A stretch of DNA of 64,000 nt from an uncultured Clostridia bacterium (GTDB taxonomy: Bacteria; Bacillota; Clostridia; Oscillospirales; Acutalibacteraceae): the NCBI GenBank assembly GCA_945876745.1, contig CAMCPL010000006.1:62001-126000 (forward strand), given 5' to 3'. The notes under the pieces were generated by a model. It had not been told where the DNA came from, ran no database searches, and saw only the letters and a program-made list of their open reading frames with translations. The translations under genes were made by a program, and so were the position numbers. This document shows, piece by piece, positions 36,049 through 64,000 of this stretch (its first letter is position 1; each line of letters starts with the position of its first letter).

Positions 36049-36105
36049 CAAAGGGACGGTTCTCTTGTGTTGAAATCATCACAGTAGAACCGTCCCCTTG
36101 TGTCC
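36049..36105. repeat. REP-like palindromes, copies 3 and 4 in opposite orientation
   Basis: CACAAAGGGACGGTTCTC-TTGTG and GTAGAACCGTCCCCTTGTGT face each other about 12 bases apart and together form a larger inverted repeat. The right copy interrupts a GNAT gene remnant. Confidence 0.6.
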
Positions 36106-38149: not shown

Positions 38150-38152
38150 ATA

Positions 38153-63221: not shown

Positions 63222-63683
63222 TCAAAAAATTCTTTTAACCCATTCGCCGTTTTCCTGTTTCCACTGAAATTCCTGCAAATCATCACTTTGAAAAATCTCA
63301 TACATTTCTTCAAAATCACTTGATAACTTATAATTTTTCAGTTCTTCAGGTTTAATCCAAAACACTTTACCCTCTGCAGAGGATTTCAGTTCACCGCTAA
63401 ACTCATTCGTTTTGTAAAAAAACACTATATAACGTACTTTTTTATTTACCTGCCATTGCTTAACACCGCATATTTTAGGCTTTTTTATATCAAGTCCAGT
63501 TTCTTCTTTTATTTCTCGTATTACAGATTCAACAATGCTTTCACCTTTTTCAATATGTCCGCCGGGAAATGTTACGCCTCCCCACGATTTGCTAACTCTG
63601 TCCTGAACTAAAATATTACCTGCGTCGTCATATATCATACACATATTTGTAAGCTCGGTTTTTTCATAATTTTTAGGCAACAA
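63222..63683 (-). CDS. Nudix hydrolase, MutT/8-oxo-dGTP diphosphatase-like
   Basis: The 153-residue protein contains the Nudix box GGHIEKGESIVESVIREIKEETGL (about residues 41-64). TELTNMCMIYDD at the N terminus and WGGVTFPGG fit a subgroup often annotated as 8-oxo-dGTP diphosphatase. The start is odd: no ATG or GTG lies at the expected place, and TTG codons at 63683 and 63680 are inside the left arm of the large structured element. The original 5' end and ribosome site may have been replaced by that element. Confidence 0.85.
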   Translation of the reverse strand: MLPKNYEKTELTNMCMIYDDAGNILVQDRVSKSWGGVTFPGGHIEKGESIVESVIREIKEETGLDIKKPKICGVKQWQVNKKVRYIVFFYKTNEFSGELKSSAEGKVFWIKPEELKNYKLSSDFEEMYEIFQSDDLQEFQWKQENGEWVKRIF

Positions 63684-63951
63684 AGAGTAATCCGAACCGT
63701 GGTTAAAATTGGCTGATTTGCCCTTACTCTGCGTTAAAAATACTCGGAATACGAAAAGTATTCCTGCGTTTTTGTGCCTTGATTAAGAACAAATCAGTTC
63801 AATTTTAACTCTTCGACCGAAAATGCTTGTAGTAAAGATGAATTTTGGGCTTTGAGACGGAAGCCCTACTTGCGTAGGGCGACGGCGAAAAGGTCAAAAG
63901 TCGCTTTAATACAAGTATTTTCGGCAGGTTCGAATTGCTCTTTATTGCCTA
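63674..63951. repeat. 278-base three-armed nested inverted-repeat element
   Basis: The outer arms (63674-63698 and 63927-63951) are complementary at 22 of 25 positions. Inside lie two long hairpins. Arm 1 (63703-63808) starts TTAAAATTG, ends CAATTTTAA, and is tipped by GGAATAC-gaaaa-GTATTCC. Arm 2 (63817-63924) starts CCGAAAATGCTTGTA, ends TACAAGTATTTTCGG, and is tipped by GCCCTAC-ttgc-GTAGGGC. The whole thing would fold into a three-way junction as RNA, or a cruciform as DNA. No open frame of note crosses it. The remaining bases to 64000 show no gene. Either a structured RNA or a MITE-like mobile element would fit. Confidence 0.7.
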
Positions 63952-64000
63952 CGCATAATACTCTCCGAATTTCATCATATTTTTATTTTAAGCAAGCGAG

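Follow-up and report, generated by a model that had tools for sequence, protein, structure and literature searches.

A mobile, three-armed palindromic element of Clostridia whose arms are better conserved than its paired ends

A 278-bp element that folds into three arms, located at positions 63674-63951 of a 64,000-nucleotide stretch of DNA from an uncultured Clostridia bacterium (the window), is real, widespread, recently active and non-autonomous. Its three-armed fold is conserved through compensatory change, and in our view it is probably a MITE-like, non-autonomous transposon with selection acting on its folded arms; it is MITE-like on account of its terminal inverted repeats, its location at TA and the lack of a visible coding role. 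A sequence-only reading of the window had offered a structured RNA and an unknown mobile element as alternatives. Mobility is borne out by near-identical dispersed copies, an empty site with one TA and copies throughout the order, and RNA as the main function is disfavoured by opposite G-U biases, an excess of antisense neighbours and the lack of an Rfam match at the gathering score.

The element lies on the plus strand, defined here as the orientation from arm 1 to arm 2, opens with TAGGCAACAAAGAGTAATCCGAACC and closes with GGTTCGAATTGCTCTTTATTGCCTA. Its left terminal inverted repeat (63674-63698, plus strand), which starts with TA, and its right terminal inverted repeat (63927-63951, plus strand), which ends with TA, constitute the 5' and 3' halves of the closing stem. 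These 25-base ends form 22 Watson-Crick pairs, one G-U pair and two mismatches, so that the nested stem with 22 paired bases read from the letters is found in both sequence and fold. Arm 1 (63702-63809, plus strand) is a long imperfect palindrome of 108 bases with the core CTGCGTTAAAAATACTC-hairpin-CTGCGTTTTTGTGCCTTG and the tip hairpin GGAATAC-GAAAA-GTATTCC (63746-63764, plus strand). A short linker (63810-63816, plus strand) joins it to arm 2 (63817-63924, plus strand), an imperfect palindrome of 108 bases that is probably the inverted homologue of arm 1 and carries the tip hairpin GCCCTAC-TTGC-GTAGGGC (63863-63880, plus strand). The coordinates of arms, linker and tips derive from an alignment of 80 copies; by these coordinates the earlier arm lengths of 106 and 108 bases become 108 for both, and the short tip hairpin described for each arm is present in sequence, fold and alignment.

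Minimum-free-energy folding, which the earlier reading had proposed for both strands, yields three arms on either one. The plus strand folds at -122.7 kcal/mol against a shuffle mean of -69.0 (z -10.1) and the minus strand at -113.6 kcal/mol (z -10.7), and none of 100 shuffles equalled either value; order of this kind had been judged unlikely by chance, and the z values bear this out. An exact-repeat search at default settings reported no inverted pairs within the element because the palindromes are interrupted, but the fold and the 80-copy alignment do reveal them. The covariance model R1 scores the window copy at 284.4 bits across positions 1-278, a score that is not independent since this copy is itself one of the 80 sequences behind the model.

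Two minus-strand frames flank the element, namely a nudix-domain gene of the ORF list (63222-63683; PF00293, E 1.1e-18), whose listed TTG start lies inside the left end of the element, and a 177-codon frame that lies past the window edge. A second element on the plus strand, 35 bp to the right, is a decayed half of the L008 subtype; it begins at 63986-64000, where its end resembles the end of L008, and continues past the window (L152). Weak matches at 38151 and 36051 of the window are ordinary hairpins, and the hairpin at 36051-36098 contains a GGGGACGGTT-like sequence that also occurs in the flank of the L002 copy.

The genome of origin (G000; 18 contigs, 98.6% complete) contains at least 13 matches to R1. 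By BLAST, the window copy is accompanied by full-length copies at 98, 97 and 86% identity as well as longer partial matches at 74-86%. L002 shares 99.6% identity with L003, L001 is 97.8 and 97.5% identical to these two, and a comparison of the 1.5 kb flanks of the three found no mutual similarity. The element is dispersed at unrelated sites and is a mobile repeat.

Beyond this genome, BLAST matches occur in 41 of 60 genomes of the genus, and R1 at E <= 0.001 has matches in 67 of the 80 genus genomes examined, including 41 of the 51 of good quality; since at most 23 candidates were scored in each genome, the copy numbers it gives are lower bounds. The model was built via 98 hit loci, 85 of which passed a test of paired ends and length, several of the failures being cuts at contig ends. 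Alignment A2 retains 80 of these 85 copies after removal of the duplicate L137 and the shorter L113, L124, L125 and L126, and 79 of the 80 measure 274-283 bp. In the sample of the order, R1 matches 89 of 295 genomes and 52 of 148 genera. Among the matches listed, those of 250 bp or more come from at least 49 of the 89 genomes and from 14 families; the matches listed for others are shorter, some of them one-armed (G092). The 28 order loci that were inspected (L200-L227) measure 275-298 bp, 19 of them have TA at both ends, and their end sequences vary widely with respect to the window element and to one another. In the phylum sample, 8 of 398 genomes match R1, four of them outside the order, and of these four G395 alone has a full-length match, the other three being about 163 bp. 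The arm 1 core occurs in named records of uncultured Eubacterium, Clostridiales, Ruminococcaceae and Oscillospiraceae genomes and similar ones, several of them from the rumen.

Searches of plasmid and phage collections (blastn, E 1e-5), which may omit records very near the genome of the window, gave no match to the window element or to a one-armed relative, and one arm 1 core pattern had no exact match in viral contigs. No earlier description was found in the main texts of the open-licence literature, with the core motifs included as queries. Many partial copies stop at contig edges, and the repeat may partly explain why assemblies of these genomes are broken. One three-armed copy (L048) reaches 328 bp, with about 50 extra, partly palindromic-looking bases at the tip of arm 1 (region 1689-1770). 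At L043, omission of the element leaves one reading frame that stays open for 900 bases to either side; the element there interrupts a single gene or, as an adjacent start-like ATG suggests, stands between two closely packed genes.

Conservation of the fold is evident from the pattern of substitutions. Across the 79 distinct rows of A2, 95.5% of cells pair, a percentage favoured by the fact that the structure was taken from the same alignment and counted over cells inflated by kinship (at 90% identity the 80 rows reduce to 41 clusters, at 85% to 20); both sides have changed in 69 of the 81 pairs. The covariation score is 0.495, compared with 0.155 for shuffled alignments and 0.067-0.089 for slid partners. 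Pairing of the closing stem is favoured because the rows were picked partly for paired ends, but the arms played no part in the choice, and for the arms alone 96.0% of cells pair, 48 of 59 pairs have changed on both sides and the score is 0.384 against 0.123 shuffled and 0.041-0.073 slid. A covariance search among relatives, one of the checks put forward from the letters, has thus found stems that covary beyond both controls; homologues that keep sequence and lose pairing had been named as the contrary outcome, and the opposite is seen, with pairing kept while sequence changes.

The degree of sequence conservation differs between the parts of the element. By mean majority share, conservation is lowest in the paired ends (0.61 for their outer part) and highest in the arm 1 core (0.88); the arm 2 core reaches 0.81, and the outer stems reach 0.82 in arm 1 and 0.81 in arm 2. 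Towards its inner side the closing stem is in part conserved, one G-C pair for example being present in 79 of 79 rows. Paired changes could also come from repair inside palindromes: hairpin or cruciform intermediates would copy one side of a palindrome to the other and so keep the pairing without selection on shape. Such copying would account for ends that change yet stay complementary and for pairs that are mostly Watson-Crick, these making up about 90% of pairs in each of the closing stem, arm 1 and arm 2. Certain facing arm positions, however, almost never pair and are nevertheless fixed (T-T in 78 of 80 copies, G-A in 79 of 80), which argues against simple side-to-side copying within the palindrome. 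The sequence of the arm 1 core is kept as well, and the 28 inspected order loci hold their length, so that we regard repair by itself as an improbable origin of the conserved pairing.

Insertion sites were studied by querying nine sites of the own genome as joined flanks across the genus, seven of which were compared in detail. One of the seven comparisons is clean and demonstrates a precise insertion with a single TA in the empty site: at L003, genome G053 has GGC-TA-ACC where the filled site has GGA-TA-element-TA-ACC, and 344 bases align without a gap. The nudix frame at this site is open in G053, and its filled counterpart stops early (...AYKWIGNKE). L007, with the register taken from the end-pairing test, fits a single TA in each of the two relatives examined. 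At L008 four relatives have TTAA or TCAA and the junction of the own copy is inexact; at the L004 site G053 has a 16-bp palindrome, TAGGCAATTTTGCCTA, which resembles two fused ends; the L006 junction is imprecise; the L001 comparison did not span the site; and L005 is ambiguous, being inserted into a further repeat of which the same genome also has empty copies. The precise empty site that had been proposed as a sign of a mobile element is therefore seen at L003, with L007 in agreement, and five of the seven comparisons are inexact or uninformative. The repeat that harbours L005 is a second one of about 280 bp, present in three own-genome places (L063, C6:11563-11844; L064, C2:150864-151140; L065, C1:438803-439081) at 94-97% identity to the L005 flanks, with L005 inserted in one copy and matches across many genus genomes.

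A wider set of 123 unique insertions was kept from 214 model or profile matches, each with at least 600 bases on either side. TA is found at both ends in 84 of them, the other 39 failing the TA/TA test, and the flanks of the 84 are symmetric, with T before the element in 52% and A after it in 44%. The terminal TA could be a target duplication or could include a right-end TA that belongs to the element, and the present data fit both.

The element thus has the terminal inverted repeats and dispersed near-identical copies of a MITE and the TA target of an element derived from IS630/Tc1-mariner. An ordinary MITE of that kind, with sequence-specific ends read by a TA-targeting IS630 transposase that was lost or missed in drafts, and with arms that are mere internal palindromes, is accordingly a possible if doubtful explanation. 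The small size of the element fits, as do its TA ends, the single TA at the empty site and its largely intergenic locations, and RUP, a known TA-ended MITE, is tied to IS630 (PMC2229807). The IS630 transposase domain (PF13358; DDE_3), however, matches in none of the 80 genus genomes, 51 of which are at least 90% complete, while 3 of 14 controls do match. Moreover, the ends vary between subfamilies and the arms are conserved, which is the reverse of what sequence-specific end recognition predicts. The IS4/IS5 domain (PF01609) is present in 9 of the 80 genus genomes and matches nothing in the own genome.

An autonomous partner with matching ends and of transposon size was found neither in the own genome, for the window subtype, nor in the single-contig genome G577. 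The latter has 41 listed ends of the one-armed type (against 2 control hits), 16 of which form eight pairs at 57, 162-163 or 211-214 bp; no two listed ends face each other at insertion-sequence length, which also speaks against the IS630 reading, with 25 ends lacking a listed mate. Twenty regions with partial copies yielded no long autonomous version either: those with a second end nearby are deletions, and the others either are truncated or extend past the contig end. Two candidates were rejected. A 414-bp partner in L256 is merely the end of an adjacent copy, and three 18-bp tandem repeats (L146, 5334-5386), which came up in the terminal-repeat search of the own genome, looked like transposon ends and are not; the gene directly after them is presumably HprK-like.

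Single-strand (HUH) transposition of the IS200/IS605, REP-RAYT or PATE type, in which the closing stem and arms would be the recognised hairpins, would explain why structure is retained more than end sequence, and an unduplicated TA would be indistinguishable from a duplicated one. In keeping with it, the plus strand is found preferentially on the C-rich flank side (75 of 123, p 0.019), more strongly so where the skew is stronger (41 of 60, p 0.006; for the strongest 16 of 23, p 0.09); the order subset alone gives 16 of 27, which is not significant. The corresponding Y1 transposase is found in 21 of 41 genomes, with two matches in the own genome that each have an internal stop. It has no match, however, in G008 (99% complete) and G028 (97%), which bear at least 5 and at least 10 R1 matches, respectively, and a scan of 24 Y1 regions (L140-L145, L150, L156-L172) met the element only in L156, about 1.7 kb from the Y1 gene. 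Taken with the symmetric composition around the TA, these results make an HUH mechanism decidedly unlikely. The three transposase searches (PF13358, PF01609 and Y1) did not show the mobilising enzyme.

The strong covariation might also reflect a structured RNA carried by the mobile element, whose transcript would be selected as a three-way junction that acts in cis on neighbouring mRNAs (on stability, processing or insulation). The somewhat better fold of the plus strand agrees with such a role, as does the overall G-U excess on that strand (176 G-U to 93 A-C in raw counts that leave out two pairs that are nearly always U-G, themselves a point in its favour) and the proximity of gene ends, at a median distance of 25-37 bp according to a crude ORF caller. 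A single RNA strand should favour G-U in both arms, though, and once relatives are collapsed at 85% identity the ratio of G-U to A-C is 3:14 in arm 1, 23:6 in arm 2 and 30:16 in the closing stem (Fisher p 6e-5 for arm 1 versus arm 2); at 90% the arms stand at 16:18 and 44:10 (p 0.001). This opposite bias speaks against one functional RNA, as does the share of about 90% Watson-Crick pairs in all three parts. By the same crude ORF caller, the frames flanking the 123 insertions are -/- in 45 cases, +/+ in 25, convergent in 29 and divergent in 24, so that co-directional neighbours are antisense to the plus strand more often than sense (45 to 25). No Rfam family matches the element at the gathering score, in line with the earlier statement that it resembles no known terminator, T-box or riboswitch, and relaxed thresholds gave nothing credible, the best E being 0.17 beside L035. 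Selection for an RNA therefore appears unlikely to us, though single copies may have a role as RNA.

The preferred reading of a MITE-like transposon with selected arms is extended by the relationship between the two arms. A model of arm 1 alone (R2, from 40 copies) was applied to 38 loci, of which 34 have two arms, and matched arm 2 in 7 of the 34 (L217 at E 8.6e-8, L248, L130, L226, L201, L203 and L204, the weakest at 7e-4), always on the opposite strand and never on the same one; part of this score is shape, because R2 also matches the complement of arm 1 itself, which is palindrome-like. R2 matches 12 of 398 genomes in the phylum sample, and one-armed-looking matches are found in G577, G626, G679, G714, G720 and G433 and, within the order, G092, with G681 doubtful. 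Where their ends can be placed, these one-armed relatives measure about 150-170 bp, and they have the core TACTGCGTT or TACTTCGTT followed by GCCTTGT or similar. Most simply, then, the inverted match of arm 2 and the existence of one-armed relatives suggest that the three-armed element is an inverted dimer of a one-armed ancestor. A resemblance to attC sites was dropped because the arm starts with GTT and ends with AAC, an order that reverses the attC layout.

A mechanism can be proposed that accommodates these observations. A recombinase acting in trans would cut at the TA by which the basal stem is closed; the excised element would then be inserted at a TA elsewhere, TTAA being weakly preferred. 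Since the arm cores are conserved while the pairing ends change sequence, the enzyme, or a host protein alongside it, may recognise the folded or palindromic arms as a cruciform or a hairpin with fixed internal mismatches; conservation is what points to such recognition by shape. Arm 2 would have arisen by inverted duplication of a one-armed ancestor, a type that survives elsewhere in the phylum. Old copies would decay by loss of arms or by breaks near the hairpin tips into short scars, to which category we would assign the copies of the own genome that lack arms (41, 47 and about 51 bp), copies interrupted at a hairpin tip or close to it (L231, L237, L256, L321) and copies shrunk to about 65, 68 and 87 bp (L232, L233, L234). 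More tentatively, the element might represent a class of mobile DNA in which the folded shape is what is read: an inverted dimer made from one conserved structured arm, its ends paired yet variable in sequence, which an undescribed or unrecognised recombinase widespread in Oscillospirales-like Clostridia would move at TA sites.

In elements derived from insertion sequences the transposase generally reads the ends, which are hence conserved while the inside is free. The present element reverses this usual pattern, its arms being conserved more than its ends, across an order of gut and rumen bacteria. It lends itself to a test of whether DNA shape can guide transposition, and the pattern points to a mobilising enzyme beyond the three transposase searches made.

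Among known systems, bcr1 is a repeat associated with a TTTAT duplication. In PMC2267715, this repeat of the Bacillus cereus group is described as mobile, with a predicted common secondary structure and listed lengths of 147-167 bp; the present element is likewise mobile with a predicted shared fold but measures 278 bp. REP/BIME sequences with RAYT, the subject of PMC2817692, are hairpins dispersed in alternating orientation, and REPs measure 20-40 bp according to PMC3733652. The alternating orientation recalls arm 2 as the apparent inverted homologue of arm 1, whereas the present element has no consistent RAYT association and has TA-bounded terminal repeats. Among 3161 structured candidates from the human microbiome, 250 fold on both strands and 20 are not predicted terminators, as given in PMC8040213; the palindromic candidates share the both-strand fold, and the named examples, to which the comparison is confined, measure 80-132 bp and are mostly from Bacteroidetes. 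The Caulobacter CIR element is described in PMC2229807 as about 110 bp long, with two long inverted-repeat arms and a linker, and conserved between species. The element shares the two linker-joined arms and, unlike CIR as described there, has ends that pair and carry TA. PMC2229807 also describes Correia/NEMIS, RUP and ERIC/RU-1 as TA-ended MITEs of about 100-200 bp with long stem-loops, whose transcripts are predicted to fold. The present element resembles them in being small and dispersed, with terminal inverted repeats and TA termini, and it differs from them in its 278 bp, its three-way junction, its conserved arm cores, its variable ends and its order-wide distribution.
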